In this document: positions 7,810-31,334 of the stretch, piece by piece | Layout of the letters: the number at the start of each line of letters is the position of its first letter | How positions within the stretch are numbered: the first letter of the stretch is position 1 | DNA from: Bretschneidera sinensis | Lineage: Eukaryota; Streptophyta; Magnoliopsida; Brassicales; Akaniaceae | Reading direction: 5' to 3' | DNA length: 64,000 bases | NCBI GenBank assembly: GCA_023935145.1 | Contig: CM043705.1 | Coordinates: 52,956,084-53,020,083 of the forward strand | Position numbers and translations under genes: made by a program | Notes under the pieces: model-generated | The model's database searches: none | Seen by the model: the letters and a program-made list of their open reading frames with translations, nothing else | Told to the model about the DNA's origin: nothing

Positions 7810-8075
7810 CTAGTCAACTAGTAGCATGACCCCAGTCGACTGGTATCCCATTACCCATTTTACCAGTCGACTAGTACAAGCATCCAGTTGATTGGTACTA
7901 CAAGACATTGTTTGGAGCCGAAAATTTGAAATTTTGGTGGCCTACCTAGTCGACTAGTATGAGACATACAGTCAACTGATGTCTCTCTGCTAGTTTACCC
8001 AGTCGACTGGTATGTCAAAAAATCCTCAAAATGAAGAAGGACCCAGTTGACTGGTACCCTAACCCAATCGACTGG
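7810..8075. repeat. Palindrome array, SIRE copy A (CCAGTCGACTGG family)
   Basis: Nine copies of a 12-bp palindrome or its decayed forms: 7810-7821, 7832-7843, 7863-7874, 7884-7895, 7946-7957, 7969-7978 (core only), 7999-8010, 8043-8054, 8064-8075. The consensus is CCAGTCGACTGG, usually followed by TA. Variants mostly change the central CG to TG or CA, as expected from methylated-CpG decay. The array lies between pol (ends 7670) and the extra ORF (starts 8299). The same word is repeated in the LTR at 10831-11035. Confidence 0.9.
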
Positions 8076-8298
8076 TATCGTGATTCTATAAATAGTCTCT
8101 TCAAATTTTTCACTTTTCACTCCATTTTAAAAAACCTTAAGCTTTCTCTCTCTAGAAAATTGTTAATTTTAGCCCAAAATCTCTCAAATTCACTCCATAG
8201 AACCTTCAATCATACCTCAAATCACCTCATTTTAAAATTTTTACTGTTGAAAACTCCATATTTCCCCAAATCTCTCTTTAAAATGATTTTTCACTAAA

Positions 8299-9690
8299 AT
8301 GGCTAAGAGAATATGCTTAAAACCCACTATTGTTGGACCTCACGCGCCTACAAGGCATCGTTCTAAGAAGTTCTCGACATCGGATACTAAGGCGAAGACT
8401 GAGCTCGATGACTCGCTCTTTTAGAGCCCCACCGCTAAGAGCAAGTATAATTCTGTAATACGCAACAAGAATATCATAACGGGTAGATTCGTTGATTTTG
8501 ATTCTTTCTGTCATACAAATTTTGATATATTACCTGTTTTCGAGGCTATTCACTTGACACCACTTATCAAGATTCACCAGAAATTTTACCCTCTCTTCAT
8601 TCACCAGTTCTACGCCAACCTGGTGAAACCAAGTCTACTGGCTCTTCGATTCAAGACCAGTTTAGTGGGGGTAGAATTCGAGGTGAACACTGACCTCCTG
8701 GTCAGCATACTGAGGATCCCCGTGGAAAGGGTCCAATGGAGTCTGGATAGATGGCCAGAAAACTTTGATTATGAGGAGGCGAGCCAGATTTTTAGGGGTA
8801 ACCCTAACTATATTTTTAGGCCCACTACATTGCACCAATGAATTGACATGCCCCTCAACTCAAAGCTGTTCAATCTTATTATGAGTTGGACTATCCACCC
8901 GAGACTCGGGAGTCAGGGTTATCTATCTAAGATAGATGTGGTATTGATTTGGTGTCTCAAAACTGGACACCATTTCAATATCTACCCCCTATTTCTTGCT
9001 AACATGATTAATGGCAAAGTGAGTGACTCTGGGTACCTCCCATACAGGATGTTCGTCACCTTGATCCTCTAGTATTTCCATATCCCTCTACCAGCCTCAG
9101 AGGCTCAGGACATCAACCCCAAAGACATCATAAATGCCCATCGACTCAAAACTGTTCAATCTCATTGTGATTTGGATCATCCACCCGATACTCAGGAGTC
9201 GGGACTATCTATCTAAGATAGATGTTGTCTCAAAACTGGACATCATTTATATATCTACCCCCTACTGCTCGCTAACATGATTAATGGCAAAGCGAGTGAC
9301 TATGAGTGCCTCCTATACGGGATGTTCATCACCTTGATCCTCCAGTATTTCCATGTCCCTCCACTTGCCTCAGAGGCTTAGGACATCGGCCCTAATGACA
9401 TCATAAATGTCTATTCTCTAAAGAAGATGGGGAATATGATCTGAGAGGGTATGATCTATTCCAAGGCTGGGAGGAACATTCGATTCGGAGATAATGACAG
9501 CAGTGAGGAGGACGAAGAGGTTCCTGATGATGCAACTCCTCCCTCTACCATAGACATTAACCCTAGTCCATAGCATGCTAGATATGGTGGCTCTAGCGGG
9601 TGTCAGGCCGGATATAAGGATTTACTACAGGCTGTTGTGAGCCTCCAGCTGTCCATGCAATCAAGCTTCCAAAGCTTGAGCTCTTAAGTC
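8299..9690 (+). pseudogene. ORF3 of the SIRE-like copia (plant transposon protein-like)
   Basis: An ATG at 8299 opens MAKRICLKPTIVG..., a basic N-terminus. A stop follows after about 35 codons (near 8422), then the frame continues to about 8841 with KFYPLFIHQFYANL and SLVGVEFEVNTDLLVSILRIP. This FYANL...V.G...I...L pattern recurs in the ORF3 products of Athila-1 (30205-31334) and Athila-2 (20279-21410), which I relate to the 'putative plant transposon protein' family. The middle (8853-9413) is an imperfect tandem duplication. An acidic stretch (DNDSSEEDEEVPDD, near 9500) precedes a C-terminal coiled-coil-like part. The role is not established; in copia elements an ORF at this position has been called env-like. 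Confidence 0.6.
8853..9413 (+). repeat. ~280-bp tandem duplication inside SIRE ORF3
   Basis: Positions 8853-9138 and 9139-9413 are diverged copies of one unit. Both begin with (G)ACTCAAA(G/A)CTGTTCAATCT, contain CTATCTATCTAAGATAGATG and CTAACATGATTAATGGCAAA, and end with GACATCATAAATG. The second copy lacks about 12 bp (the ATTTGGT region). The duplication repeats the central part of the ORF3 protein. Confidence 0.85.
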
Positions 9691-10230
9691 GATCACATAC
9701 GTTGAGACTTACGCATACTGCGAGACGATTCCGAGTTGCGCCGAGAGCACACAAAGGGCTCTCTGGTTTAGATTTGGGATCTTCTTCATGACGACTTCGA
9801 ATCCCCCACTCGGTGAGATCTTAGTTTTAGTATTTAGATTACCATTGTACAACTCTTAGATGTTTAGCACAAACATTCATTTTCTTTGTATTACATTCAT
9901 GTATTGTACTCATACAACTCTCTAGAAAGCTCATAATGATTGGATATATCTAGATATTTGCATTGTTTTACATATTTAGACTTTAGCTCATATATATATG
10001 CCACTTTTATGCTATATGATTGCTTGGTTTGAACCATTTGTGCTCATCTATATGCTTTATATGGTAACACTTATGTGCAAACTTCTGTTTCTTGTCGGGA
10101 AGTCTTCCCAATTTCGAATCATGCCTAATTTTTTTATACAAGTTTTTTTTTCCTTATCTTCATGACTATGGTGTTTAAATTTCTTATTTTTCAAGTTTAC
10201 ATCCCTTTTTTTATTTTTGTCAAAACAAGG

Positions 10231-10516
10231 GAGAAAAATGAGAAAAATCAAGTAAAAGAGAAAACTGTATGTAAACTTGGAATAAAGCATAAATTTAAGG
10301 GGAGCATTGCTCTGAACATGTTGATAAATGTATTATAGACTTGTACTGCTTGGTTAGGTTGATATAACTGTATTTAAACTACATTTGAATGCTTAACAAA
10401 TTAGTTTTTATCAAAAAAACAGAGGAGACTATACCCAAAGTTTTCTAAAAACCAACACTTAGCTTTTAAAACTGTTTTTTTCTCCTTGGTTTTGTCATCA
10501 TAAAAAACGGGGAGAT
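10231..10516 (+). other. Polypurine tracts before the SIRE 3' LTR
   Basis: Purine-rich words precede the LTR: AGGGAGAAAAATGAGAAAAA near 10229, AAGGGGAGCA near 10298, and AAAAACGGGGAGA at about 10503-10515, immediately before the LTR start. The last is the expected primer for plus-strand DNA synthesis. Multiple such tracts are a described feature of Sireviruses. Confidence 0.6.
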
Positions 10517-10830
10517 TGCTTACCCATATTTAATTTTAATAATGACAAAACACTACTCTAATTGCACTAGTAGTTTTATCTAAGTGTTTAAGCGGTAAAA
10601 TCATTCAGTACAGAAACAGGATGCAAAAACTAAACGTGATTCAGACACCAAAACAAGCCAGAAGATCTAGAATAGGCATTAAGGTAATTGAAACAATTAT
10701 GAATCTCTTATGTTCAATAACATAGCTTGATATGTAGCTCAATTTAAAGACTATAACAAAACTAAAAAACATAAAAAGTTTCTAAGTCAAAAACTGTTTT
10801 TTGAAAAGGAAAACTGGGTTGAAAGACAAC

Positions 10831-11035
10831 CCAGTCGACTGGGTTGAAAGACAACCCAGTCGACTGGGTCCTTATACTAGTCGACTGGGATATGGAACAG
10901 AAAGTTCCTAGTCGACTTGTGCTGAGGAGCCAATCAACTAGTAACTTCACCCAGTCGACTGGTACTCTCTCTAAGCCTAAAAGTGAATATTTTTCACTTG
11001 ACCCAGTCGACTGATACAAGGACCTAGTCGACTGG
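10831..11035. repeat. Palindrome array, SIRE LTR (CCAGTCGACTGG family)
   Basis: Eight copies of the word also found at 7810-8075: 10831-10842, 10856-10867, 10877-10888, 10908-10919, 10930-10941, 10951-10962, 11003-11014, 11024-11035. The array ends about 95 bp before the TATA-like box at 11131, placing it in the upstream promoter region of the LTR. Confidence 0.9.
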
Positions 11036-11130
11036 TAATTCGAAAAATATGACTGTTTAAGATGCAAGACTTAAGAATTTAATGCCTCAAACCTACCAAG
11101 TCAGTTTCAAACAATCATATTGATTCAAGG

Positions 11131-11140
11131 CTATATAAAC
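11131..11140 (+). promoter_or_regulatory. TATA-like box of the SIRE LTR
   Basis: CTATATAAAC lies downstream of the palindrome array, in a suitable position for the LTR's RNA polymerase II promoter. Confidence 0.5.
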
Positions 11141-11749
11141 CCACTTCAATGAGCATTTTTTAAGAAAAAAGAACACATTCAATTCACAAGATAGCTCATT
11201 AATTCTCAAAATCTTTGAAAATTTTATTATTGAGCCATTCTTCAAGCTTGTTCTTGAAAGAGAGATATTGTTCATTTGTAAAAGCACTTATTACTATCTC
11301 TCTACCATTTACTTTACATCAAATTCCATTTATTGTAAAGGGAAAGAGTTAGTGCAACTCTTAGAGTGTTTAGGATTAAATACTTCATTGTAGCTTTCGT
11401 AAGGAAGATATCAGTTGTGAGGTTTGTGCAACACCTGTTAAGTTGCAAGACTAAAGGTTTTAGTGGATTGCTTTAAGGAGGTTCCTTAAAGAGAGTGGAC
11501 ATAGGGTCGAAGAGATTTTGATATTGTCGAACCGCTATAAACGGAGTTTGCATATTCTCTTCCTTAAACTCCTTTACTTTCAAGCATATTATTTGATTGT
11601 GTGATTTGTGTATTTAATTGTTTAAAAAATTGCAAGTTAATTAGCAAAATTTCTTAAAACCCAATTCAACCCTTTTTGGGTTTGAACCTTGGTTTACACC
11701 TATTAATAGAAGTCTTGATCATAAAATCTTGTTAAAACCTAATACGAAA

Positions 11750-14370: not shown

Positions 14371-14474
14371 CATGATCAGTTAGAGGAGGTATCCCAGGAA
14401 GATTGTACAGAGTTTTTAAAACTTTACCCTACACATCACTTTGAGGACGAGGTGTTTTTCAAATAAGGAGGTAA

Positions 14475-14600
14475 TGATAGTAACAGAGAAAGCAAGGAAC
14501 AAGTATAGTTTAGCAAAGAGAGGGAAGGGATAACAACAGGAAGAGAAGAACTACAAGATTGTGAAGAAGAAGGATATAAAGGTAATAGCATCAGGAGTAC
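14475..14600 (+). repeat. Gypsy-B right LTR, first piece
   Basis: Follows a purine-rich stretch (AAATAAGGAGG, 14461-14471) and starts TGATAGTAAC. It stops at 14600 with AGTAC, the left copy of the duplication flanking Athila-1. The LTR continues at 49671. Confidence 0.7.
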
Positions 14601-15562
14601 TGATGAGAGTCATAAAATGCATCTTAATAGTATTTATTTGTTAGTGTTTTAGGGTTTATTTAGGGCTGAATTACACATTTATGCCTTAATAATTCTAAAG
14701 TATCATTCTTGGTTCATTGACTTATTTCGATGCATTTTCAGGTATTTTGGGTTTAAAAGATATGGAAAAGCTAACGTTGCTTAAAGCACAAAGATTCTAT
14801 GCATATTGTAATGAAGGAATGGTTTCGGAAGGACAAAATGAAGAGAACTCTATTTCTAGGGTTCCATGCTGTGGTAAGCCAAAGTTTGAGCCGCGACCAC
14901 CAAAAACCATTAGCTTCTAAGCTAGAGGCTGGAATCATGTTGTGCACCGCGGCCTGGACCAGTGTGCGCCATGGCCTCCAGAGCCTCTACAAAGCCAGGA
15001 TCCAGGGTGGCGCCACGATGAGGAAAAGCTGAGCCGCGGCGCGAGCGCGATCCCCTGTTTCTATTTCATGACTTTATTAGGGCTTTAATGACATTTTTTG
15101 ACCCAAAAATACCCTTGAACCTTTTGGGGTATTAATAGAACACTTAGGTTTGATTGAAAGGCAGGTTGGAATTAGGAGAGCAACCATATTCTTCTCCATT
15201 TTAGGTGATCAAGCATGAGCCTACTGTCCAACTAATCTCCAAGCAAGGCAAAATGATGAATTCCTAGGTGCAGTTGTTCTTATTTCTATTCTTGATTCAG
15301 TTGTATGGATTTATTGTTAAACGTTGCTTATGATTTACTCTTTGATTAAGTAAGAATGAGATGATTTCCTCTTAATCCGATCTTTCTCCTCCATATAAGT
15401 CTAGTCAAGCTCTTCTTATGTTAAGTTGTTAGATGTGATTGATTTCGGTAGATTCATCTTATAGATTTGTCCATTATTGCGGTATTGTTATTGAACTATA
15501 TTGTCGTTTCTTGATAATCTATAAGATAGGTCACATGTACTTGAATCTGAATTAATGAGTAA
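14601..15562 (+). repeat. Athila-1 left LTR (3' truncated)
   Basis: Matches 48332 to about 49320 of the right LTR. It ends near 15562 at GAATTAATGAGTAATG, where the right LTR continues for a further ~345 bp. A deletion joined it directly to gag coding sequence. It contains a CCGCGG-type motif cluster (14888-15049). Confidence 0.9.
14888..15049. repeat. CCGCGG-motif cluster in Athila-1 left LTR
   Basis: GC-rich words in otherwise AT-rich sequence: GAGCCGCGACCACC (from 14888), TGTGCACCGCGGCCTGG (14941-14957), GTGTGCGCCATGGCCTCC (14962-14979), GGTGGCGCCACGAT (15006-15019) and GAGCCGCGGCGCGAGCGCG (15031-15049). They approximate a 16-bp palindrome GTGCGCCGCGGCGCAC. The right LTR has the matching cluster at about 48600-48800. 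Confidence 0.75.
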
Positions 15563-16480
15563 TGCTACATGGGGTAGATCATGTACTTAAGGATTGTCTA
15601 GCCTATTTTGAGATGAAGGGAGAGTGTAATGCTTTAGGTATACCCTTTAGGAAACCATACTCACCCTACTCTAACACCTACAATCTCAGTTGGAAGAATC
15701 ACCCTAATTTTAGTTGGAGATCTGATCTACAACCTCCTGCCCACTCTAGTACCCAATGGAAACCAGAAGCAACTTTATTTAATACACCACAACAAACCTT
15801 ACCTTTGTAAGATGTTTTTAAGTCATTTTTGCAGGTACATGCTAAGAGTGTGGAAAAGCAAGGCAAGATAAATCTATGGTTGCTTAAGGATCAACAAAGG
15901 ATCAAAGAGGAACAAAAGGTGATAAAGAGCTATCTCACCAAATTGACTAGTTTCTTGACGATTCAAGAGCAATGTCATTTTCCTTCGCAGCCACAACCTA
16001 ATCCAAGGGGACAACATATAGCACAAACCTCCGATCTTGACAATCAAAATGTTAAAAAGGTTAATACCATGATTACTCGCAGCGGTAAGAAAATTGATGG
16101 ACCCACTCTACCATCAAACTTAATTCCTAACACCGTGAGCCACAAGGATGAAGCCCCCAAGGAACAAGATACCTATAGTGATTCTTTACCAGTGTATTTC
16201 CCTCAAGCACTCCTTAAACCTAAAGACAGAAATTTAGCATTAAAAGGTAAGATTCTTGAACAACTTCAGCATATCAAAATTAACCTTCCTCTTCTTCATG
16301 TCATAAAACAGGTTCCCAACTATGCTGAAGTCATTAAAGATCTATGCACACTCAAGATGAGGCACAATGTGAAGAAGACGACATTCTTAACAGAGCAAGC
16401 AAGTGTGGTAATTGATAGTAAGACACCGCCCAAATATAAAGATCCAGGCTGTCCAACAGTGGCTTGCCAAATTAGAAACA
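15563..16480 (+). pseudogene. Gag C-terminal part of Athila-1
   Basis: Opens inside a zinc-knuckle-like segment. The His and last Cys (DHVLKDC) remain but the first two Cys are gone, removed by the deletion that also took the LTR end and most of gag. YSNTYNLSWKNHPNFSWRSD matches the equivalent Athila-2 stretch (YANTYNPGWWNHPKFSW, near 24700). After a stop at about 15808 the frame resumes at 15829 with a helical KEEQKVIKSYLTKLTSFL part, a QPQPNPRGQ linker and HIKINLPLLHVIKQVPNYAEVIKDLC, which leads into protease. Confidence 0.8.
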
Positions 16481-16931: not shown

Positions 16932-18022
16932 ATGATCGATGAGCTTATTTTGGAGGATGAGTACATTAAAGATAATTCTAACTCTTTGGAATTCCTTCCT
17001 AATAATTTTGATTTTGATGATTCTTCCATTTATCCCCATGCCGTTAATGTTGTTGATGTTTTTGATAAGTCATATGGATTTATGAAGAAATCATGGCAAC
17101 TATGCTTTGAGGAGTTGCCAAAAGAAAGGGAGGCACCCAAACCCTCTTCAGAGAAGACACCAACACTTAACTTAGCTTCGCAACCCAAAGGACTCAAACA
17201 TGTTTTTTAGGCCCAGGTGATACCTTTATGGTTATTATTTCCTCCGAACTTAGTGATGTGCAATGTGATCAATTGTTGAATTTGTTAAGAGAACATAAAT
17301 CTGCATTAGGTTGGACTATGGCTGACATAAAAGGTGTTAGCCCCTTAATTTATTCCCATAGAATTTATCTAGAATAAGGAGCTAACCCTCGTAGAGACCC
17401 ACAAAGAAGGCTAAATCCAACTATGAAAGAGGCAGTTAAGAAAGAAGTCTTAAAACTGTTGGATGCAGGAATTATATATCCAATATCGGATAGTAAGTGG
17501 GTTAATCCAGCCCAAGTAGTTTCTAAGAAAGCCGGGGTGGCCGTGGTAGAAAATGAAAAGGGAGTGTTAGTACCAACTAAGGTAGTGACCCGATGGCGTA
17601 TGTGCATAGATTATAGGAAACTTAATTCAGCCACTCAGAAAGACCATTTTCCTCTTCTATTCATAGATCAAACTTTAGAATGGGTGGTTGGTCATCCTTT
17701 TTATTGTATTTTAGATGGGTATTCGGGATACTACCAAATAGGAATTTCCTTAGAGGATCAAGAGAAGACCACATTTACTTATCCTTTTGGTACTTTTGCT
17801 TTTCGAAGAATGCCCTTTGGTTTGTGTAATGCACCGGCTACTTTTCAAAGATACATGATGAGTATTTTCAGTGACATGGTTGAAAAATGTGTGGAAGTGT
17901 ATATGGATGATTTAACCGTGTTTGGAACTTTTTTTTATTCATGTTTATCTAATTTGAAAAATGTTTTTGTGCAGGTGTGAAGAGAAAAGGCTTGTGCTTA
18001 ATTGGGAGAAATGTCATTTTAT
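16932..18022 (+). pseudogene. Athila-1 pol, first part (linker and RT palm)
   Basis: An acidic linker (16932-17210) leads, after one frame break, to reverse transcriptase. Open codons 17423-17980 contain EVLKLLDAGIIYPISDSKWVNPAQVV, RWRMCIDYRKLNSATQKDHFPL, LDGYSGYYQIG, MPFGLCNAPATFQRYMMSIF and the YMDD catalytic box (VYMDDLTVFG, about 17898-17928). The frame is lost just before the insertion. The sequence is interrupted at 18027/18028 by Athila-2 and continues at 27346, where CHFMV joins SSGIVLGH across the gap. Confidence 0.9.
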
Positions 18023-18027: not shown

Positions 18028-18931
18028 TGTTGCACGATTATTTACCTAAATTAATAAGTAAATGATCATACTTATTTTACTTGCAAGTGCACAAGGTCAA
18101 TGGTAGTACAGTGTGCAAATGCGAGATCATCTCCACAGCAATTGGTAAATTTTGATTTAGAATTAGTTTCTCAAAATAAAAAGAGATAGAAATAAATGTT
18201 AAGTGTGAATTAATAATGATAAGAACATGCATACGTTGATCAGACACACGCATATGAGGAATTTAAATAAAAATAGGCATTAATCAATTAAAGAATCATA
18301 ACATGGCTATTCGCAAAGGCAATCAATGAATATATATGTGAAAAAGCATAATTAGGGCTTCAATCGAGCCCTATAAGAGTTTAGTTACACATTTTAAGTA
18401 AACTAAACATCATAATCATAACTAAACTAGAACAGAAAAATAAAACCTGAAGAATGTTGAGGAGATGAGTCGTCAATTCCTCTCCAGAGCTTACAACTTC
18501 AAGTTAAAAACCAAAGGTGTGTTTTTTGTGTTTTGCAAGGCTATATATAGGGCTCTAAGGGTGCCCCGAAACCCTAATTCCCAATTTAATGTCTGGAGAC
18601 TTCTTTCTAATTCTGGCTCTGCCGCCTCTGGTGCGTGTGCACTCGATCGCATGAGTCTACGCTCGAGCGCATATGTGCGCTCGAGCCTTCTAAGTGTGAG
18701 CTCGTGTGCCAGTGCGCTCGATCACAACGGAGGTATTCTCGAGCGCACCTTGCTTGGTTTGCAGATCTTCACTTTTTATTCCTTAGAGCTCCAAAATGTC
18801 TTCTTTTTGTCAAAGCCCTATGAAAAACACATAAAACACGAAAATGAAGTAGAATCTACTAAAATAGATAAACAAATAGCCTAACAAGCATAAATTAAGG
18901 GGCTTAAATATGACTATTTAAGAACTTATCA
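18028..18931 (-). repeat. Athila-2 3' LTR
   Basis: On + it reads TGTTGCACGATT ... AACTTATCA. It matches 26112-27340 except for lacking about 347 bp (26313-26659 there). Length 904 bp. It contains GTGCGCTCGAGCGCAC-type motifs (18634-18749) and a TATA-like word (CTATATATAG, 18541-18550). Confidence 0.9.
18634..18749. repeat. CTCGAG-palindrome cluster, Athila-2 3' LTR
   Basis: GTGCACTCGATCGCAT (about 18637), GCTCGAGCGCATATGTGCGCTCGAG (18661-18685), GAGCTCGTGTGC, GTGCGCTCGATCAC and CTCGAGCGCACC (to about 18749). They approximate the perfect 16-bp palindrome GTGCGCTCGAGCGCAC. Confidence 0.85.
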
Positions 18932-18943
18932 TACCCCCAAACT
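18932..18943 (-). other. Polypurine tract of Athila-2
   Basis: On the minus strand AGTTTGGGGGTA directly precedes the 3' LTR, the usual Athila polypurine tract that primes plus-strand synthesis. Confidence 0.8.
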
Positions 18944-20278
18944 TACATATTGCTAGTCTCTTAGAAATACAAAACGAAAGACTATATCAAAAAAAAATTA
19001 AAGATAAATTCATTCTTCATGATAAAAAAAAAAAATTGGGTTGCACATAAAACCATGATGACCATTCATGAGTAATCTTATAATAAAAACACATTTTTGT
19101 AGTGAATAAGGATTTTAAAAGTTCATGTTACTTACCTAAGGTTGGCTTAAGGCATCGCAAGTTTGATTTGGTGTGTGGTGAATTAGTACATAAAAGATGG
19201 AACTTCCAAATAATTTTAATGTATAGTGTTTCGGTGTCCAAACCTTCATCGAATTCCTTATCAGATAGAACAAAAATGGCATAGTTTTTTTACTTCTTTT
19301 CTTTTTCTTTCATCATGAGATTTTTGCCATGTTGAGTTCCATTAAGCTTTCTAATTGACCCTTGTAGCAAGTGTTTAGTCAATGACTCCCAAACCAGATG
19401 GTTTTAGGGCATTAGGTGTAAAGACACCCCTGAGGACTTACTAACTCGAGTAAAAAAGGCTATGGAACTAACAGGTCTTAATGCTACCAAGTGAAATTCT
19501 CACCTTTTGACGTGAACACTCACTACTTACTGAGGCAAGAGGTCCAATTACTCAGTAGAAAGTTTATTTAATGATCATTAGAAGCATTTTATTTTTTTCT
19601 TTTGCATGATAAACATTTTTTTCTTTATTTTTCTATGCCAAAGTGTTCTTCTAACAAGTTATCCGATTACAGTTAGGTCATGGAAACATATATATAAAAA
19701 TTAAATGTCATATCCCACACAATTGTGTGCTAATGTGCTTGTGTTAGTCATAGATCAAACTTGTGAATTCTTAAGTGCCTTGAGGTAGGTAATTTAAACT
19801 TTTAAAATTCCTATTACTACGCTATGTGTTCTAGATTTTAAGCTTACTAATGAAGTTTTATCATATTTGCTTTAAATCAGCTAAAATTTTCAACACAAAA
19901 TGATCATGTATTTATCTTTAAAACAAAAATTTTGGGACATAGTGTGTGCATATGTGTGCAAGTGTCTCTCTCTACCCCAAAACTTAATATACACATTATC
20001 CCCAATGTGTGTGTGATATAGAAAGATCTGACTTGGGAGATGGAGAACTAGACTGCTTGTATTGCTCGTAGCACGCCCCTAAACTTGAACTGGATGCACG
20101 CACTAAGTTCCTGACGAAGAAAAAAAAACGTTGTGCCAGAAAATAAGAAATATGGAAAATAAACTACTAAATGAACATAAATAAGAAAAGAAAAATACTA
20201 TAATAAAAAGGATATGCAGTGGGGTGCCTCTTATGAGTGCTAAGTTTTACGTCTTCAGCCAGACAAGGTATCCTCTCA
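18944..20278. other. Athila-2 3' noncoding segment
   Basis: AT-rich sequence between ORF3 and the polypurine tract. I see no conserved coding motif; short open stretches here are not supported. It is typical of the long 3' noncoding region of Athila elements. Confidence 0.6.
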
Positions 20279-21410
20279 TTACTGGTCATCAGGTGGTGTA
20301 ATCGAAGAAGTACTGGGTGCGGGAGGTAGGCAATCAGGAATGGCTTGTAGCATCGCCTCCTGTCGTGCAAAATGCGCCTCTAAACCATCTATCCACTGAT
20401 GGATCAGACAGGTCGCCTCTTTGTCATCCCGGTGAATATCGGAGAGCTCGCACCGAAAGAAAGACGGCTCCTCAAGAAGGAGCTGATACTCAGTGGACCC
20501 CATGTCTGGCTGGTCCTCTTCGCATGTAGAGCTCACTGTCGGGTTCTCGGCATCCGTCGAATCGTCCATCATAGTCTCAGCCATAGGAATATGCATTCGG
20601 TGTTATCGAGGCATGTGGGACTGACTGAGGCTCCACTGTACCCTCTCAAAGAAATGATGGTCGCTGACTGGTCCATTTATTAAGGAGCGCCTAATCCCCT
20701 TATTCTTGAAGATGTGACTGAGCAAAAAGGGGAAAGGGAGCCCCCATGTATTAGCTATGGAGGTCTGACGACTATATACATGATCCCATAACTTATGTAT
20801 CTGACTCCATATGATGGCTGGGATGAAGTACCAGTGACCCCGATAGAAGGCATAGAGGGCCTGTAGGAACTGATCCCACCTCCAAGTCTTGTGCCCCAAG
20901 GGGTACACATTACGCCGAAAGACGGAGTCAATGAACCACAAACGGGGGGCAACTTCGACCGGCTCCCTTCATTGTTGTGCCGGTTCACATACTGGCCCGC
21001 ACACATGTCCTCGATAATGTAGAGCAGAGGAAACGGGTCTGGCTGCTCCGCCATATGGTTGTCTTCTGAGAGGGACTCATCACAGCAGTGCAAGGAAGTG
21101 ACGATATCAGCAGTGGTCAGCTCTATAAATCTGCCCTGGACTGATGATGATAGAATCTCTGGTCGAGTGTAGTCATAGGTTAGGTTCTCGTAGAAGCTGA
21201 CCACGAATCGGGTGTATGCCATCGAATAGATCGGCTTGAACAATCGCTTGAGACCCTGGGCTTTGAACTCTTGGACTACCCATCTTGTGGTGTCCAAGCT
21301 CTTGAATTCTTCATCTATGTTAACATAGTCTCGAACAGGATGTCACGCTGCTCGAAACTCGGTCGGGTGGACTGGGAGCGACTGCTGAAGGCTTGGGAAC
21401 TGGAGGCCAT
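20279..21410 (-). pseudogene. ORF3 of Athila-2 (plant transposon protein-like)
   Basis: On the minus strand an ATG at 21410 opens MASSSQAFSSRSQST, Ser-rich. A one-base shift near 21315 leads to DTTRWVVQEFKAQGLKRLFKPIY and FVVSFYENL ... SSVQGRFIELTTADIVTSL. This matches the FYxN...V.G...I...L core of the other two ORF3 proteins. After another shift near 20945 it continues with WFIDSVFRRNVYPLGHKTWRWDQFLQALY and a C-terminal part with IHQWIDGLEAHFARQEAML (likely helical) ending PPAPSTSSITPPDDQ. Palindrome clusters lie immediately upstream (21446-21527 and 21985-22089). Role unproven; see findings. Confidence 0.65.
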
Positions 21411-21445
21411 CTGCTTTAGGTATTCTGGTGTAGCTTCTGGTGTAA

Positions 21446-21527
21446 GTGCACTCGATCATAGTTGAATGTGCACTCGATCGCATTGAGTGATGTGTGCGCG
21501 AGCACAAAGGCCTATCGCTCGATCGCA
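21446..21527. repeat. CTCGAG/CTCGATCG motif cluster upstream of Athila-2 ORF3
   Basis: GTGCACTCGATCAT (21446-21459), GTGCACTCGATCGCAT (21469-21484), GTGTGCGCGAGCAC (21492-21505) and CGCTCGATCGCAC (21515-21527): four diverged copies of the LTR palindrome just 5' of the ORF3 start. Confidence 0.8.
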
Positions 21528-21984
21528 CTCATTTAGGCAATTGATCGAACAGTTGATGTGCAACAGAAACTTAAAGCTATAGCAAACACTCGAACGCGAT
21601 CCCAACCACCTATAGACATGAAACCAATCATTCAATCACACAAGATAAACATATAATAGTATCAAAATGTAAATGAAAAACCCGTGTGTGATGGTGTGCA
21701 AGTAAGTAGAACAAAATAGGGTTTTTGCATACCGTGTTTTGACTTATGTAGAGAGTGGTTGTGTAATTGAAAAAGGAGGGGGTTTTGTGTTGGTGGTAGG
21801 GTTGTTGCGGTGGTGAGGTAGGGATGGTGTGGAGAGCCGGAGGTGAGGGGGAGGTTTGAAATAGATTTAGTGTAGGGTGAGGGCAAGTACGATAGACAAG
21901 AATAAAGAGTGCGCTAAAGCGTAAGGTGAGGAAAATGACTTTGTGAGTGAAGTGTGAATAAAAGCCCTCACGTGCCTTCTCTGC

Positions 21985-22089
21985 CTCGAGTGCACTCGAG
22001 CGTATGGTGAAATGCGCTCAATCGCACTTGAGGGGGAGGTGTGCGCTTGCGCGCTCTAGAGTGCAGGGTGAGGGTGCGCTCGAGCACAC
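21985..22089. repeat. Second CTCGAG motif cluster between protease and ORF3 of Athila-2
   Basis: CTCGAGTGCACTCGAGCG (21985-22002), ATGCGCTCAATCGCAC (about 22012-22027), GTGTGCGCTTGCGCGCTC (from 22040) and GTGCGCTCGAGCACAC (about 22074-22089). Confidence 0.85.
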
Positions 22090-22280
22090 TGTGTTGTGGG
22101 CATAGGACAACACAGTATGTATAGAAAAATTAAAACTTACAAAGATTGAAATATTAAATCTAAAACAATACAACCTTATCGTACTTTAGTGGCCTCAATA
22201 CCACTAACCTTGATAGAGGCACGTGAGCTATAGTTACGAAAATAGAAATTGCTCAAGCGCTCTCTATAATAGCTTCAGAG

Positions 22281-23219
22281 CTACTTCTTTTTAAGGAGGC
22301 ACTTAGATCCCACATATGGTGGTTTAAGTGCCCTAAACAGTTGTTTCATCTCTAATTCTGGTCCCTGGATAATAGGAGAGAGAAAAGTAATATTAGTGGG
22401 CTCAGGAGGTTCAATTGGAGGACTATGCTTACATGGAGGCATTGGTGTGTCCTTAAAGGGGTGCATGGCTTTATTGATGTCTTTAATCACATTGTCATCT
22501 TCTGGTTCGATATCTAATCTTGGGACACCATGGTTGAGGGTAGTCTCCAATGGATCACTGTGATGGACTTGAAAAACTTTCTCCACAACACCTTGCATCA
22601 AACTTACATCAGAATATTCATTATCATCTTTGGTTGACTTTAATGTATTAAATATTTTGAATTCTATCTCCTTATCATTTACCTTCATAGTGACAATGCC
22701 CTTTTTTACATTAATATTTGTGTCAGCAGTTATCATAAAAGGTCTTCCTAAGATGATGGGTAGAGGCAATGGCATAGTACATTCTTTCATATCTAATACA
22801 ATAAAATCAACAGGTAAAATAAATTTACCTACTTTTACCAAGACATCCTTGAGAATACCTCTTGGTCGTTTGATGCTTCTGTCAGCCAGTCGCAAAGTGA
22901 TGGAGGTTGGTTGAAGTTTCCCCAAGCCCAGTGTCTCGAATACACTGTATGGTAGCAGATTGACACTTGCTCCTAGATCCAATAGTGCATGCTCGAATAG
23001 CTGGTCAACTAGCCTGCAAAAAATAGTAAAACTACCCAGATCTTTTTGCTTTGGGGGTAGTTTTCTTAATAGCACAACACTTACCTCTTCAGTTAAGGCT
23101 ATTGTCTCATGTGCCTGAAACTTCCTTTTGTTAGTGCAACAATCCTTCAAAAATTTAGCATATGCAGGAATTTGTTTAATTGCATCTAATAAAGGAATGT
23201 TTATTTCCACTTTTTTCAA
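22281..23219 (-). pseudogene. Athila-2 protease
   Basis: About 312 open codons on the minus strand, the longest uninterrupted reading frame in the repeat region. It begins KKVEINIPLLDAIKQIPAYAKFLKDCC, then ALLDLGASVNLLPYS (active-site loop), ITLRLADRSIKRPRGILKDVLVKVG, LPVDFIVLDM and LPIILGRPFMITADTNI, all matching the Athila-1 protease. It ends with a Pro-rich tail and RALKPPYVGSKCLLKKK, where reverse transcriptase would normally follow. Its upstream connection to gag is cut by the solo copia LTR at 23238-24126. Confidence 0.85.
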
Positions 23220-23237
23220 AGTTTCGAAAATGTCAAT

Positions 23238-24126
23238 TGTTGGAAATCACCTTAACAAGATGCTCAGGTGGTGATCTTCCAAACATTCAAGTCTAGAATG
23301 ACTTGTAAAGAAAAGATACAGCAACCAAAGCAAGAAAGAAAAGAAGACAAGCAATTGTTATCGAGGTTCGGCAATAGCCTACGTCCCCGTTAGTTCCTCT
23401 GAACTCTCTGCACTAAATCAATGGTTCTTTACAATCTAGCAACCCTCTTCAATAAACCTCAAGTTCTTGAAGAAACCAAGAAGAGAAGAAAGAATATGAT
23501 AAGAACTATTACACTGCTCTCTATCAAATCTATACTACTCTCTCTTTACAACCAGCCTCACTACAATGAGTCCCTCTTGTATTTTGTGTCTTTGCACTCT
23601 CACACAATTCTCTCTTGTATGTCTGTCACTCTTTACAATTGATATCAAATTATGTCACAATGTTAATAAGAATAAAGCTAGGTGACCCTTTATATAGTGC
23701 ACCAACTTCTTGTCCAATCTTGAGAGTTAATCTCCACCTTTAGATCTTGATGACCACTCAACCATGGCCCTTGATCAATCCTTAGTGATCCTATGCATTT
23801 TGGACATATCTCCACGCACTTAACAGAGGCTGAATCAAATGGACTATGTGTGCCTTCAAGGTGCGGCTTGAAACAAGGCACACTTGCTGCCACTCTGTGA
23901 GCCATGGCCTAGGGTAGGGTGCGTCACGGCTTGGCCTTCCTCTAGTATTCCTTCATGTTGTGTGCTGCGGCCTGGACAAAGCTGGGCCGCGGCCTGACTT
24001 GATGCACATATTTTTCAGCTTGTGTGCTTAGGGGCACACACTAGTGTGCCTACCTTTTCCTTGCTCCAAGGTGCCGCGCACACTTGTGTGCACTTCTTTA
24101 ACATGCTGAAATTTATTTTTCCAACC
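23238..24126 (-). repeat. Solo copia LTR inserted in Athila-2
   Basis: On the minus strand this ~890-bp sequence matches the Tork-like copia LTRs at 31659-32488 and 45939-46867, including TATATAAAG (here 23688-23696) and the AGGCTATTGCCGAACCTCG region (near 23365). It starts TGTTGGAAATC on + and ends TTCCAACC, the expected TG..CA inverted ends with the final A changed to C. Flanks TCAAT (23233-23237) and TTGAT (24127-24131) agree at three of five bases, so the duplication is uncertain. No copia internal sequence remains, so it is a solo LTR, formed by LTR-LTR recombination. Confidence 0.8.
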
Positions 24127-24131
24127 TTGAT

Positions 24132-25670
24132 TTAGACATTAACCTTGTTTAAACCATGTTTAAACCTTAGAAAAATATCAACATCAATTAGTTTAGTCTC
24201 TTTGTTAGGCTTTACTAACCTTTGAGGAAAGGGTGGAGGTGCATTTACCTTCTCCATCTCACTTACCTTAGATGTGGATGCTTTGTCTGGAGATGTTTGT
24301 GTAGGCTTATCGACACCTATGATTTTTCCACTTCTTAGGGTTGTCACAACATTCAATTGCTGGTGTCCTCTTGGATTAGGTATGGGTTGGGCTGGAAGCT
24401 CTTCTTGCTTTCTACTACTCAGTTCATTGGCCAATTGTCCCATTTTTACCTCTAATCCTTGAATGACTTGATCACGTTTTGCAGTGGTTTGTCTCATCTC
24501 AGTCCGAAATTTTCTTGTTTCTTCCATGAACTATTCGTGTGAAGTCATCAGCTGTTGGTGTTGAGATACCAATTGCTGGTGCTGAGTTGCCATTTGCCTC
24601 ACAAGACTCTCGAGGTCACTCTTCTTGGGTTCGGTAATAGATTGGGCTACTAGTTGGAAGTTTCTTTGCTACCCTTGACCATTCTAATTGTTGCTCCAAG
24701 AAAATTTTGGGTGATTCCACCATCCAGGGTTATAGGTGTTTGCATAAGCATTGTTCTTTGGCGGATAGTTGTTTGGTCCCATAAATTTTTCTTGCTCATG
24801 GTTTGTAGATGAATACAAGGGACATGTATCAGTGTTATGATCAAATTGGGAACATATCGCACATACTTGGAGTGGTGTAGCTGGTGGATTAGGTGATGTA
24901 TTTTGAGCGGCCATGGCTTTAACTAGCAGATTTAGTTTCCTCTCCACAGCAGCTATTTGGGTAGAAGATCCTCCATTTAGGTTTACCTCATATATACCTT
25001 TGCTCTTGATTACATGTCTACCTCGAGAGGAGAATTGCTGGGTATGTTCACTTAAGGTCTAGAAGAGCTCCATGGCTTCTTCGCTGCTTTTCTCCATCAG
25101 CACTCCTCCACAACTTGAATCCATAATACTTTTATTAGTATCACTTAAACCTTCATAGAAAGCTTGTATCAGTTCATCCTGAGGTAGGTTGTGATGAGGG
25201 CATTTGAATAGCAACTCGTTGAAGTGTCCCCATGCCTCAAAGAGTAGGTCTCCATCCTTTTGTTGGAAAGACTGAATCTCCTTCCTCATTTGCCTCGTCT
25301 TTTGGGCTGGGAAAAACTTCCTTAAGAATTTGCTGGCCAACTCCTCCCAAGTGTGGATAGAAACTATAGGCAATGAATTATACCACAGTTTAGTATTATC
25401 TTCCAAGGAAGAAAGGAAAAGAATTAACCTGATTCTTTCTTGGTCTAAGCCTCGGATGTGCTAGAACTTGTAGAGATCGAAGAACTCTCGAAGGTGCAAG
25501 TGTGGATTCTCATTAGGTGTCCCCCTAAAGTGAGTCAGTGCACTGAGTATCTACGAAGATATGTAGTAGTTGTTTTCCACCTCAGGTTGATAAGCAATGC
25601 AAGACAGTTGATCGAGGTTCCGTGGGATGAAGGATTGCTTCATCGGTCTTCGCTTATGAGGTTGTTGGTT
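24132..25670 (-). pseudogene. Gag of Athila-2
   Basis: Reading down the minus strand: RNLDQLSCIAYQPEVENNYY (about 25620), NENPHLHLREFFDLYKF (near 25500), RIRLILFLSSLEDNTKLWYNSLP, WEELASKFLRKFFPAQKTRQMRKEIQSFQQKDGDLLFEAWGHFNELLFKCPHH and LIQAFYEGL, the capsid-like retrotransposon gag domain (25059-25460). Then CAICSQFDHNTDTC, a CxxC...H...C zinc knuckle (near 24860). A coiled-coil-like segment with a QPIPNPRG linker (24132-24527) precedes the solo-LTR insertion. Stops and frameshifts separate the blocks. Confidence 0.8.
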
Positions 25671-26087
25671 TTCTAACTATTCTGCCATCGGTGCTCCTTC
25701 CTCAATTTCTTCTTCTACCTCTTCAGAGTTATCTCTAAGCCTTTGTCAGATGGTCTGCTTAAGCTCGGGATCGAGGGGAAAGAACGTTGGATGTCTAGAT
25801 CGAAGCCTGTGCATGAATCGGTAACAGTTGCTTTAGTGCAGCAGTTCAACACTGCTGCCCGGATAGCTCTCTGCCTCAAGTGCACTCCATCGCACGTGGT
25901 ACAGAGGGTTCTGCTGGAGTGCCTGAAACAGAAAATAAAAAGGAAAAATATTAGGTTTTGGATTAAACAAAAATAAAGGTAAAAACTTAAAATTTGTGAT
26001 TGTTAATAAAAATAAAACAGAATAAATAATTAAAACTCAAAACTACTAAACTAAACGTAAATAATCCTAGAAATAATTTTAGTGCAA

Positions 26088-26105
26088 TCCCCGGCAACAG
26101 CGCTA
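26088..26105 (-). other. Athila-2 primer binding site (tRNA-Asp type)
   Basis: On the minus strand TAGCGCTGTTGCCGGGGA lies seven bases inside the 5' LTR. It differs at two positions from TGGCGCCGTTGCCGGGGA, the known Athila primer site complementary to the tRNA-Asp 3' end. Confidence 0.85.
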
Positions 26106-26111
26106 AAAACT

Positions 26112-27340
26112 CGTTGCACGATTATCTACCTAAATTAATAAGAAAATAATCATACTTGTTTTACTTGCAAGTGCACAAGGTCAATGGTAGCATAGTATGC
26201 AAGTGCGAGATCATCTCCACAGGGATTGGTAAATTTTGATTTAGAATTAGTTTCTCAAAATAAAAAGAGATATAAATAAACGTTGAGTGTGAATTAATAA
26301 TGATAGGAACATAGAGCTGTGATATCCACCACTAATTACACTTTCCCACTAAATAAGGTGCCAATGCTCTAGCCCTACTATGAATACCTAAGGGCTTGGT
26401 CCACACCTTAGGCTATTTATCTCCCTAAGCAACAAGTTAAGCATGATGTATACTCCAACTCTTTTCTTTCTTAAGGGATTCAGCATGGGTGTATACTGAG
26501 TTGTTCCTTAAGAGAACATAAGGGTTGTGGAGATCGACAACCACACGGGACCTAGGGCTTGGTCCGCTCCCGGTTTCCCATGTTGATTAACCCAAGAATC
26601 TAGCGTGAATTTCTTTTGTTACTATTGTTGAACCCAGGACTCAGTCATCCATACCACATGCATACATTGATCAAACACACACATATGAGAAATTTAAATA
26701 AAAACAGGCATTAATCAATTAAAGAATCATAACATGGCTATTCGCAAAGGCAATCAATGAATATATATGTGAAAAAGCATAATTAGGGCTTTAATCGAGT
26801 CCTATAAGAGTTTAGTTACATATGTTAAGTAAACTAAACATCATAATCATAACTAAACTAGAACAGAAAAATAAAACCCGAAGAATGCTGAGAAGACGAG
26901 TCGTCAATTCCTCTCTAAAGTTTACAACTTTAAGTTAAAAACCAAAAGTGTATTTTCTGTGTTTTACAAGGCTATATATAGGGCTCTAAGGGTGCCCCAA
27001 AACCCTAATTTCCAATTTAAGGTCTGGAGACTTCTTTCCAATTCTGGCTTTGTCGCCTCTGGTGCGTGTGCACTCGATCGCATAAGTCTGCACTCGAGTG
27101 CATACGTGCGCTCGAACCTTCTAAGTGTGTGCCTGTACGCTTGATCACAAGGGAGGTGCGCTCGAGCACACCTTGCTAGTTTTACAGATCTTCACTTTTT
27201 ATTCCTTAGAGCTCCAAAATGTCTTCTTTTTGTCAAAGCCCTATGAAAAACACATAAAACACGAAAATGAAGTAGAATATACTAAAATAGATAAACAAAG
27301 AGCCTAACAAGCGTAAATATGACTATTTAAGCACTTATTA
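26112..27340 (-). repeat. Athila-2 5' LTR
   Basis: On + it begins CGTTGCACGATT (first T changed to C) and ends AGCACTTATTA (CA changed to TA). Length 1229 bp. It holds 347 bp (26313-26659) absent from the other LTR, bounded by the repeated word ACAT. It contains the CTCGAG motif cluster at 27064-27170. Confidence 0.9.
27064..27170. repeat. CTCGAG-palindrome cluster, Athila-2 5' LTR
   Basis: GTGTGCACTCGATCGCAT (about 27066-27083), CACTCGAGTGCATACGTGCG followed by CTCGAAC (27091-27117) and GGTGCGCTCGAGCACA (27155-27170). It is the equivalent of 18634-18749 in the other LTR. Confidence 0.85.
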
Positions 27341-27345
27341 GATGT

Positions 27346-29392
27346 CCTCTGGAATAGTCTTGGGTCATATAGTGTCCGAAAAGGGGATAGAAGTGGATAA
27401 ATCGAAAATTGAATTGATCTCTAAACTACCCACTCCTAAGAATATTAAAGATGTTAGGTCTCTCTTAGGGCATGCCGGGTTTTATAGAAGGTTTATTCAA
27501 AATTTTAGTGCTACCTGTAGACCCTTATGTAAACTTTTGAAGAAGAATACTGAGTTTAAGTGGAGCCCCAAATGTGAGCAAGCCTTCAGGACACTTATCT
27601 CTAAGCTTACAACCGCCCCTATTATGCAATCACCGAACTTTACTTGCCTTTTGAGATTATGTGTGATGCTAGTGACTATGTTGTAGGAGCTGTTTTAGGA
27701 CAAAGAAGGGAGGGAAAACCATTTGTTGTTTATTATGCTAGTAGAACCTTAAATCATTCTCAAATGATGTACACCACAACCGAGAAAGAATTACTAGCAG
27801 TAGTATTCGCATTGGATAAATTTCGCTCTTACTTAATTGGTTTGCCTATCATTATATTCACAGATCATTATGCCCTTAAATTTCTTTTCTAAAAAATGGA
27901 TGCTAAAGCCCATTTGATACGTTGGATTTTGCTTTTGCAGGAATTTGACTTGACCATCAAAGACAAGAAGGGGGTGGAAAGTGTTGTAGTGGATCATCTA
28001 TCTCGCTTGGAATTTAAGAATGATGCTGACATTTTGCCCATTCGAGAAGCTTTTCCGGATGAGAACTTATTTTCTGTCCTTGATCACACACCATGGTATG
28101 CCGACATTGCAAACTACTTGGTTTCCTGTCAAGTCCCATCTACATGGAGTGCACAAGATAAGTGTAAATTTTTGGCTGAGGTAAAGAATTTTTATTGAAA
28201 TGACCCTTATCTTTTTAAATATTGCCCCAAACAAATAATAAGAAGATGCATTCCAGATATGGAAGTTGATAGTGTGTTAACTTTTTGTCATACGTATGCT
28301 TGTGGTGGCCACTTTTCTATTAAAAAGACAGCCGTAAAAATTTTGCAATGTGGTTTTTATTGGCCTACTTTATTCAAGGATACTAATAAGTTTTGTCGAT
28401 CATGTGAAGGATGTCAAAGGTTAGGTTCATTGTCTCGTCATCATATGATGCCTCTCAACTCGATCTTAGTGGTGGAAATCTTTGATTGTTGGGAGATCGA
28501 TTTTATGGGACCATTTCTACCTTCTTTTGGGTATACTTACATTTTGCTTGCCGTTGATTATATTTCTAAATAGGTTGAAGCAATACCCTGCCGCACTAAT
28601 GATAATACAGTTGTTGTTAAATTTCTAAAAGATCATATCTTATCTAAGTACGGTACTCCTCGTGCTATAATTATTGATCAAGGGTCACATTTTTGTAACC
28701 GTTCTTTTGAGAGTTTAATGCGCACATATGGAGTCACCCATAAGGTTTCTACAGCTTATCATCCACAAACCAATGGCCAAGCGGAACTAGCAAATAGGGA
28801 GATTAAGCAAATACTTGAGAAAACGGTAAATCTCAATCGAAAAGATTGGTCTTTGCGCCTATCAGATGCACTTTGGGCGTACCGGACAGCATACAAGACG
28901 GTTCTTGGAGTATTTCCTTATCGGTTGGTATTCGGTAAAGCATGTCACTTGCCAGTAGAACTTGAGCACATACCATATTGGGCTATTCGGAATTTTAACT
29001 ATGACTTGAAGATGTCCGGTGAGGAGAGGAAAATGCAACTTTGTGAACTTGCGGAGTTGAGGGATGATGCATATGATAATGCTAAGGACTTAAAGTCAAG
29101 AATGAAAGTGGTGCATGATCAGAAAATACTCCGGAAAAATTTTGAACAAGGTAATGGAGTTTTTCTTTATGACTTGCAGTTACATTTCCATCTGGGAAAA
29201 TTACGATCACGACGGAAGGAACCTTATGTTGTGAAGAGTGTTTTTCCCGATGGAGTAGTTGAGGTTGAAGATCCTTCTGACGGTCGTGCATTTCGAGTTA
29301 ATGGCCAAAGGTTGAAGCTCTACTTGGAACATGAACGTGTTAAAGATAGCCCCGAAGAGATCTCTTTGGTGGCTCCAATTTATGCTTCTTAA
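27346..29392 (+). pseudogene. Athila-1 pol, second part (RT end, RNase H, integrase)
   Basis: Resumes the reverse transcriptase with SSGIVLGHIVSEKGIEVDKSKIELI and SLLGHAGFYRRFIQNFS. RNase H (27644-28000) has MCDASDYVVGAVLGQR, TTTEKELLAVVFALDKFRSYL and FTDHYALKFL with its acidic residues present. Integrase has the HHCC zinc segment (CHTYACGGHFSIKKT ... CRSCEGC, about 28285-28420), DFMGPF (28500), [11 protein letters not shown] (about 28668) and [26 protein letters not shown] (28718-29392) with the catalytic Glu. It ends with the [17 protein letters not shown] tail. Breaks: a frameshift near 27640, a stop at 27892, a stop near 28197, and TAG replacing the Trp codon at 28571-28573. Confidence 0.9.
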
Positions 29393-29605
29393 TCGGGTAC
29401 TTTCGTTCCATTGTACATTAGTTTTAATTTTGTTAAGTCTTTGTTAATTTTAGAATTTTTGTTTTAAGTTAAGTCTATCTTAATTTTAATTTCTGGTTTG
29501 ATTTAATTTTAGTTTTTAGTTTTAGATTTATTTTTATTAATTTGGTTTACATTTTTATACCCATTTTATTTGTTTGTTTCAGCCTATCAATTTTTTCTCT
29601 CCATT

Positions 29606-29830
29606 GGGTGCCGCGACCCAAGCCCTTAAGCCTAACCCAATCCAAAAAATTTTCTTTCCATTGGGGGCCGCGGCCCAACCGAGCTCACCTCGCCCCATAG
29701 CAGCCCATCAGAAGCCCAGCCCAGGTCGCGCTGCGCCCCAGCCCATCTCATGCCGTAGTGCATAGCAAGGCACATTTGGGGTTTAGGTCTTCACACCGCG
29801 GCGCAAGTAAGTGTGAGCCGCGGCGCACAC
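29606..29830. repeat. CCGCGG-motif cluster upstream of Athila-1 ORF3
   Basis: GGGTGCCGCGACCC (about 29606-29619), GGGGGCCGCGGCCC (about 29664-29677), CACACCGCGGCGCAAG (29792-29807) and GTGTGAGCCGCGGCGCACAC (29811-29830), with further GC-rich words between them. They resemble the LTR words at 14888-15049 and lie between pol and ORF3. Confidence 0.75.
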
Positions 29831-30204
29831 CCGTGACCTACACTTTAAAAAGGCCATTTTCCCTCTTCTTCTTCATTTTCCTTTGAAAACAAACAGCCCC
29901 TTTTCTACTCTCTCTCATCCTTTCTCCAAATCTATCCTTGCCTATCTACTTTTTCTCTTTCTTTCTTGATTCTAACACAATTCTTTGAGAAATTTCTCAC
30001 TTATATTGCAGATTTTGCTGAAAATTTCTCCAAAAATCTTGGTTCTAAGAGGATTTTGGGATTTCAAGAGGATTTCAAGTTTGTGGGTGTTCTCTCCAAC
30101 TTTGGGCATCAAGTAAGATCAATTTCCTTCTCTTTGTTGTGGACTTGTGATATTTGAGTGGTTGCATTTAATTTAGTTCTCTTGTCTTAGAACAGTTTGT
30201 TCAA

Positions 30205-31334
30205 ATGGCACCTAAAACTAAGAGACAAAGGGGAAAACAAGCTCAAGAGTATGATGAGAGTAAATTTGTTACTTACAATGCTAGTGAGAGGTATGTTAGT
30301 TTGATGCATGCTAGGAGACTCATTCCTGAAAGAGGTTTAACTATCACAGAGAGGGGAAACCCAACTTTGTTTAAAATGATTACTGATAGGAAGTGGGGTG
30401 CATTTGGGAGACAACCACCTAATTCCATTATTAATGTGGTTAGAGAGTTTTATGGCAATGCGGAAGAGCATAAAAATCGCAAAGTGATGGTTAGAGGAAA
30501 AATAGTTTCCTTTGACAGTGCATCTATTAATGGATTTTATGGGCTACCCGACATTGAGAATAATGAATATATGGCTTATCTGTCCAATGTTGACTATGAT
30601 ACGGTTTGTAATACACTCTGTATCCCAGGCACGACTTGAAAGATGTCGGGTGGTAATCCTAAGACCTTGCCAGGTACTTCTCTGACTGTGAATGCTCGGG
30701 TTTAGCAATACTTTGTGTGTCAAAAGATGATGCCTGCTACACATTATAGCAATGTTACTGTTGAGAGGGTTGTTCTTATATATGTTATTTTGATGGGTAT
30801 GACGATTGACGTGGGTCAAATAATGTTTAATTCTATCATCCACACTGTGAGACAAAAGCTTGGTCTACACTTTCCCTCTTTGATTGCCCAATTATACATC
30901 CGATCTGGTGTCCAGTATTGTAGTGATGAGGAAGCGCAGCACCCCAAGAAGCCTATAGATGATGGAATGCTCAATGTGATTAAGGTAACAAGGTCGCAAG
31001 CTCCAGGAGAGGGAGCAGTGGTTGCTGCCCCCCTCCACCTCCTAGGTCTCTGACTATTGCAAAGCAGGTTGAGCGTTTAAAGATTCGATTAGATGAGCAT
31101 CAAAAATTCTTACAGGATAGGTTTGATCATCATGAACGATTCTTAGCCAGGCAAGCAGACTATCAAGTGGGGGTTTACTCTTCTTTTGGTCAGATGTACC
31201 AACACCTTACCTCCACCACCGGTTGTGATATAGGTCATTTTCCCACCTTGCCACCCTATCCGGATTCATCTTTTGATCCAGCTCCAGAGGAGGATGAAGA
31301 AGAGGAAGAGGAAGATGATGACATAGAGGATTAG
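30205..31334 (+). pseudogene. ORF3 of Athila-1 (plant transposon protein-like)
   Basis: ATG at 30205 opens MAPKTKRQRGKQAQEYDESKF, a basic N-terminus that could act in nuclear localisation. The core reads RKWGAFGRQPPNSIINVVREFYGNA ... VMVRGKIVSFDSASINGFYGLP, the FYxN...V.G...I pattern shared with the SIRE and Athila-2 ORF3 proteins. In-frame TGA (about 30637) and TAG (about 30703) and a frameshift near 31035 in a Pro run break it. Downstream parts give LTIAKQVERLKIRLDEHQKFLQDRFDHHERFL (coiled coil) and an acidic end PEEDEEEEEEDDDIED. The order core, coiled coil, acidic tail is seen. In Athila elements an ORF here has been called env-like, but I see no signal peptide or membrane segment. Confidence 0.65.

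Follow-up and report, generated by a model that had tools for sequence, protein, structure and literature searches.

In the genome of Bretschneidera sinensis, arrays of short, mostly palindromic words lie in the LTRs of Athila and Sirevirus-like retrotransposons and again upstream of their ORF3, and among the loci examined the words are specific to ORF3 clades. The best reading of ORF3 and its arrays together is that ORF3 encodes a VANC-like, clade-specific regulator acting on the arrays at the LTR and the ORF3 promoter, with DNA binding and an epigenetic effect putative; we hold this to be somewhat more probable than its opposite. VANC proteins, encoded by VANDAL (MULE) transposons, are described as binding short repeated motifs and causing loss of methylation (available text of PMC5735166 and PMC10398659). 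The observations come from a 64,000-nucleotide stretch of contig CM043705.1, hereafter the window, and from a survey of the genome.

Nested LTR elements in the window

The window contains nested LTR elements, namely a Sirevirus-like copia, Athila-2, Athila-1 and a further copia (31659-46867), whose boundaries were placed by visual reading of BLAST pairs, direct repeats and sites resembling primer sites. Athila-1 here denotes the minus-strand element at 18029-27340, whose word has a TCGA centre, and Athila-2 the plus-strand element with CCGCGG; an earlier, sequence-only reading of this DNA possibly numbered them the other way round. Athila-2 extends from a 5' LTR (14601..15561, plus strand, degenerate CCGCGG sites at 14872-15048) to a 3' LTR (48332..49665, plus strand, sites at 48597-48800) preceded by a polypurine stretch, the ends of both being uncertain. 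Athila-1 is inserted within the Athila-2 reverse transcriptase, a piece of which lies at 17423..17980 (plus strand; RVT_1, E=3.2e-18), and the nested copia lies farther downstream in Athila-2.

The left LTR of Athila-1 (18029..18931, minus strand) contains an array at 18637-18748 with TATATA 87 bp beyond it in the sense of transcription, and the right LTR (26113..27340, minus strand) contains an array at 27068-27171. In the nested copia, CCGCGG sites are found at 31714-31842 in the 5' LTR (31659..32488, plus strand) and at 45994-46143 in the 3' LTR (45939..46867, plus strand). Identical 5 bases flank its outer ends, as judged by eye, and the stretch at 32490 is one that we take to be primer-site-like. 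A lone LTR-like copy of this element sits inside Athila-1 (23240..24060, limits approximate, minus strand; sites at 23964-23993). The Sirevirus-like copia is marked by a reverse transcriptase piece at 6192..6800 (plus strand; RVT_2, E=2.8e-56). From its sequence it appears to follow the Sirevirus layout, with a copia pol, an ENV-like ORF and palindromic repeats in the LTR and before ENV; purine stretches resembling Sirevirus PPT octamers were recognized by eye.

Palindrome arrays in LTRs and upstream of ORF3

The sequence-only reading had proposed that each of three LTR families carries its own CG-centred palindrome both in the LTR and upstream of ORF3. A blind comparison of the most enriched palindromes in these two places bore this out for two of them. 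In the Sirevirus-like copia the word is CCAGTCGACTGG in both, with 7 copies in each, and in Athila-1 it is GCGCTCGAGCGC, with 7 copies in the two LTRs and 6 before ORF3. The Athila-2 word was not recovered by this comparison; it has GC at its centre, flanked on either side by a CG, and CG-centring fails for some clades of the survey as well.

The pre-ORF3 array of the Sirevirus-like copia (7812..8075, plus strand) consists of CAGTCGACTG-like sites and is followed by TATAAA at 8087..8092 (plus strand), which begins 22 bp past the start of the last site. The same word makes up the LTR array (10831..11035, plus strand; LTR start at about 10518 by eye), beyond which is a TATA-like box at 11132..11139 (plus strand). 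The array sites can also be given as AGTCGACT, in the LTR as well. The GCGCTCGAGCGC sites before the Athila-1 ORF3 form two groups (21468..22089, minus strand), and no TATA pattern was found after them. The CCGCGG sites before the Athila-2 ORF3 (29609..29828, plus strand) precede a TATA-like CTTTAAAAAG at 29843.

Within the 64-kb window, GTGCGCNNNNGCGCAC has 31 matches with up to 3 mismatches (1.98 expected) and CCAGTCGACTGG has 16 with up to 2 (0.81 expected). At least 4 copies per 400 bp are reached by 27 of 3864 palindromic 12-mers, and by none in any of 4 simulated sequences; 16 of the 27 belong to an AT repeat at 4.6-5 kb, 1 is another AT-rich word, and the remaining 10 are words and variants of the Sirevirus-like copia and Athila-1 arrays. 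Chance or GC-richness as the source of the arrays is ruled out by the simulated sequences and the survey controls.

Arrays precede TATA-like boxes in most window clusters and in the Sirevirus-like loci, as they would if they were sites for host transcription factors, serving the promoters of the LTR and of ORF3 while ORF3 itself did something unrelated. We consider this explanation unlikely, although it deserves to be weighed at several points below.

Spacing and TATA phasing at Sirevirus-like loci

In all ten Sirevirus-like loci examined, hand-picked from 150 scored and many of them chosen for long open frames, CAGTCGACTG is the top word, with 3 to 11 copies. The last site starts 22 bp before the TATA in 11/11 loci, the window included. 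Among the 79 site spacings of up to 75 bp, 59 are 21, 22 or 31, and the distinct spacings are periodic near 10 bp (P 0.009, simple simulation), though these copies are related and the spacings are not independent events. The LTR array of the window copia, which keeps part of the spacings and has its next TATA pattern farther away, 107 bp past the last site, was excluded from these statistics. The helical spacing and the fixed TATA distance suggest, at the level of sequence, a protein bound to one face of the helix at a putative promoter.

The same two features favour a protein on duplex DNA over the notion that the palindromes are RNA or DNA hairpins or small-RNA hot spots, as those of maize Sireviruses are described in the available text of PMC10760457 and PMC5311732. 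The imperfect palindrome of the largest PF20167-type subclade examined (below) also argues against this notion, which we judge very improbable.

ORF3 clades and their words across the genome

The sequence-only reading had called for a genome-wide survey pairing ORF3 clades with words, and we carried it out in part. First-look ORF3 candidates in the 1.21 Gb genome numbered 9379 (PF20167-type), 7745 (Athila-1-type) and 6536 (Sirevirus-like), and 150 of each were scored; ORF3 copies with open frames are present in the genome. The PF20167-type sample (n=51) comprised the best 30 of 150 scored, 20 hand-picked for different profile ends and the window Athila-2. The Athila-1-type sample (n=30) comprised 29 of the best 30 of 150 scored and the window Athila-1, entered as W_Ath1 in place of L046, which is the window itself (L012-L015 were unused). 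Because best-scored loci were chosen, high-scoring copies are over-represented. The upstream region was 1500 bp per locus.

A palindromic 10-mer was enriched upstream at p<1e-5 in 38/81 loci, compared with 3/81 for letter-shuffled words and 1/59 for downstream flanks. The word CGCTCGAGCG occurs at 28/30 Athila-1-type loci vs 3/51 of the PF20167 type, and CGCCTAGGCG at 29/51 PF20167-type loci vs 0/30 of the Athila-1 type. The largest of the 13 PF20167-type subclades (27 loci; 25 in the hexamer-rank and TATA analysis, as sub5) has CGCCTAGGCG in 25/27, and another, of 3 loci, has GTGCGCGCAC in 3/3. Four subclades have CCGCGG-type words within their best two, the single locus L079 carries the Athila-1 word, and the remaining subclades have weak words; L085 and the window Athila-2 yielded no enriched word at the survey setting. 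Thus ORF3 clades have their own upstream words, and a short motif peculiar to the family recurs in the element's noncoding DNA as in VANC systems, though not for every subclade or locus. Nor is the word always a palindrome: the copies inspected in the largest subclade repeat GCCCAGGCGCAC in tandem, which misses palindromic symmetry by one base. Over the whole genome there are 2170 occurrences of GTGCGCNNNNGCGCAC vs 7 of its reversed control. A TATA-like pattern follows the array in only 7/30 Athila-1-type loci.

The half-sites GTGCGC/GCGCAC had been proposed as common to the Athila-1 and Athila-2 words. In three groups GTGCGC takes ranks 2, 9 and 11 out of 2080 hexamers, and in a further six its rank lies between 39 and 1814, so that a shared half-site is true for part of the clades; for Athila-2 itself its basis is one nearly complete copy at 29813-29828. 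Viral contigs, scanned with an ORF3 piece, with a word and with an alignment, gave nothing useful, the 11 word loci having one site each, and a scan of genome contigs was likewise unproductive.

Words that track the ORF3 clade within one genome would be unexpected for one common host factor. They could also arise by inheritance with the element and no functional pairing, since loci within a clade are copies and the survey counts ignore descent. Against this, copy number varies within a clade (3 to 11 sites) while the word stays constant, and in two elements one word is shared by the LTR and the pre-ORF3 region; we regard mere co-inheritance as highly unlikely.

A copia that shares the Athila-2 word

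As a correction to the sequence-only reading, the array at 31714 belongs to the LTR of the nested copia (31659-32488); Athila-2's own LTRs (near 14601 and 48332) carry degenerate CCGCGG sites. All 17 sites matching GCCGCGGC with at most one mismatch in the 64 kb fall within Athila-2 LTRs or its pre-ORF3 region, or within LTRs of the nested-copia family. The nested copia apparently lacks ORF3, with only 336 bp between its last pol piece and the LTR. When window pieces of at least 25 aa were searched with profiles, nothing turned up in it apart from one weak match (E 0.028) at 32490-32624. This sharing blurs the third pairing, that of Athila-2, and is a point in favour of a host factor. The sequence-only reading had named equal motif density in related elements without ORF3 as evidence against itself, and this is partly what the window contains.

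Sireviruses offer a parallel. In the available text of PMC2829016, 4 of the 13 Sireviruses with repeats have them in the LTR although they lack ENV, six ENV-bearing ones are without repeats, and Bousios 2010 suggests nuclear factors, all as a host factor would have it. In contrast, linker arrays are present in 9/9 of those 13 with ENV vs 0/4 without (p 0.0014), which speaks against a host factor. The VANC6 motif, moreover, is reported in AT9TSD1, an unrelated element whose methylation is lost in VANC6 lines (available text of PMC5735166 and PMC10398659), so that a shared motif is not in itself a refutation of a pairing of protein and word.

ORF3 proteins and their predicted fold

ORF3 is broken in the Sirevirus-like copia (8299..9684, plus strand; pieces at 8287-8421, 8425-8838, 8842-9069 and others) and in Athila-2 (30205..31331, plus strand), and is present as frameshifted pieces in Athila-1 (20282..21455, minus strand). 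Two Athila-2 pieces match PF20167 (Transposase_32) with scores of 58.6 and 51.3, above the curated cut-off of 45. Below it, and from fragments, are two collinear copia pieces (13.2 and 14.7; E 0.083 and 0.029) and one Athila-1 piece (16.9), two other Athila-1 pieces having no match. The Athila-1 relatives P0025, P0026 and P0030 match PF20167 below the cut-off with E 1e-6 to 2e-4, and the copia ORF3 matches an Athila-1-type profile at E 0.0033. The earlier claim of related ORF3 proteins in three families therefore holds in that all three elements contain related pieces, weakly so for copia.

For two predicted ORF3 models, built from overlapping MSAs of PF20167-type relatives, the top match is the VANC21-DNA structure (PDB 9lnj), and both align with the same stretch of VANC21. 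These relatives are thus predicted to share the fold of the crystallised DNA-bound part of VANC21, which backs by modelling a likeness to VANC that had been offered in principle and counts against a host factor. Foldseek alone with the first model and sequence searches of the PDB gave nothing useful. The 22 members of A2 have matches to 13 families at E<=10, and DUF1985 is not one of them, in a search whose HMMER filters drop most weak matches.

The traditional label of the gene is env-like (available text of PMC11728184 and PMC2829016), and ORF3 could accordingly be an envelope or movement protein beside unrelated GC-rich promoter islands. By a simple hydropathy scale, with many fragments, a 19-residue window exceeds 1.6 in only 2/30 relatives and stays below in 28/30; basic N-termini are common, and the predicted fold is VANC-like. 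We find this role extremely unlikely; it and RNA hairpins, as main roles, were set aside by argument.

A candidate self-recognition system

As a VANC-like regulator, ORF3 of Athila and Sirevirus-like elements would be a probably nuclear and dimeric protein that binds a clade-specific short word repeated upstream of the LTR promoter and of a putative ORF3 promoter. The bound protein may prevent or remove methylation, as VANC does, activate directly, or do both, and so keep the two promoters open; at its own promoter this may amount to positive autoregulation. Between clades, word and protein would change together. A broader proposal, to which we give slightly less than even credence, is that the env-like gene of Athila and Sireviruses is a VANC-fold, operator-binding regulator, that two LTR superfamilies run clade-specific self-recognising anti-silencing switches through operators in helical phase, placed both at the LTR and at a promoter for ORF3 within the element, and that ORF3-less elements poach by copying the word.

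VANC motifs likewise are short, repeated in the element's own noncoding DNA and different between related families (available text of PMC5735166 and PMC10398659). Unlike VANC, ORF3 sits in LTR retrotransposons (RVT_2 in copia, RVT_1 in Athila-2) and not in MULEs, and belongs to PF20167 with no DUF1985 match; its putative words are CG-containing and mostly palindromic, in arrays at the LTR and before ORF3. Bousios 2010 described palindromic repeats that lie both in the LTRs of Sireviruses and ahead of ENV, with a TATA box near, and in the available text ENV is not proposed as their binder (PMC2829016). The present work extends that pattern to Athila, with clade-specific words in one genome and a predicted VANC-like fold. 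The sunflower Athila aORF(+) shares PF20167, a 3' position and a predicted NLS, and the available text (PMC11728184) gives neither a paired DNA word nor a VANC match. Retand ORFs with a TRP28 domain also lie between pol and the 3' LTR, with DNA binding and a regulatory role suggested; unlike ORF3 they are antisense, of another domain and lineage, and have no paired word in the available text (PMC11963269). In the literature searched, outside which most subscription journals lay, no paper was found that pairs ORF3 with these words or with VANC.

If correct, the VANC-like reading would give the gene traditionally labelled env-like a function open to testing, connect VANC-like proteins with the LTR retrotransposons occupying so much of large plant genomes, and explain the presence of palindromes which in small-RNA studies are regarded as structured hot spots. 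The available text of a 2026 sunflower paper leaves open whether Athila ORFs shape element methylation (PMC12844716).

The plant mobile domain proteins MAIN and MAIL1 are described as carrying a TE-related domain and as linked to silencing and a promoter 'DOWN' motif. Their hairpin-helix motif presumably resembles that of ORF3. Unlike the proposed regulator they act in silencing, not against it, and no search here matched them. Of the 14 sites in the Sirevirus-like arrays whose flanks are intact, 11 have CG and the remaining 3 have CA or TG. A change of CG to CA or TG is the usual mark of methylated-C decay.

Additional features of the ORF3 elements and the window

In the Athila-1 copy, a minus-strand LTR element, the protease piece and ORF3, the 'env-like' gene, both lie within window positions 20282-23219. 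They are only ~0.8 kb apart in this copy, so RT/INT cannot fit between them; ORF3 and its array are nevertheless still present.

Among the surveyed genomic loci, the upstream parts (the 1500 bp before ORF3) of the largest PF20167-type subclade, seen among loci L016-L045, carry a near-palindromic word in tandem that finishes with GCGCAC. A TATTTAA pattern was also found upstream in 25/25 loci, a count that covers 25 of the subclade's 27 loci, and 395-aa open frames are numerous in this group. A Sirevirus-like ORF3 match elsewhere in the genome (G000:C4:31977588-31977998) lies in an open frame of 3590 aa with two internal TGA codons, which is unusual for an ORF3 locus.

The nested copia, which seems to lack ORF3, contains a tandem repeat with a 60-bp unit (window 33218-33517) and a 2.6-kb direct pair of 91.5% identity (34661-37249 and 41530-44142), between whose members lies an inverted relative of window 657-4181. 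The DUF538 piece on the plus strand at 60665-61120 (E 8.7e-29) is an ordinary fragment resembling a host gene.
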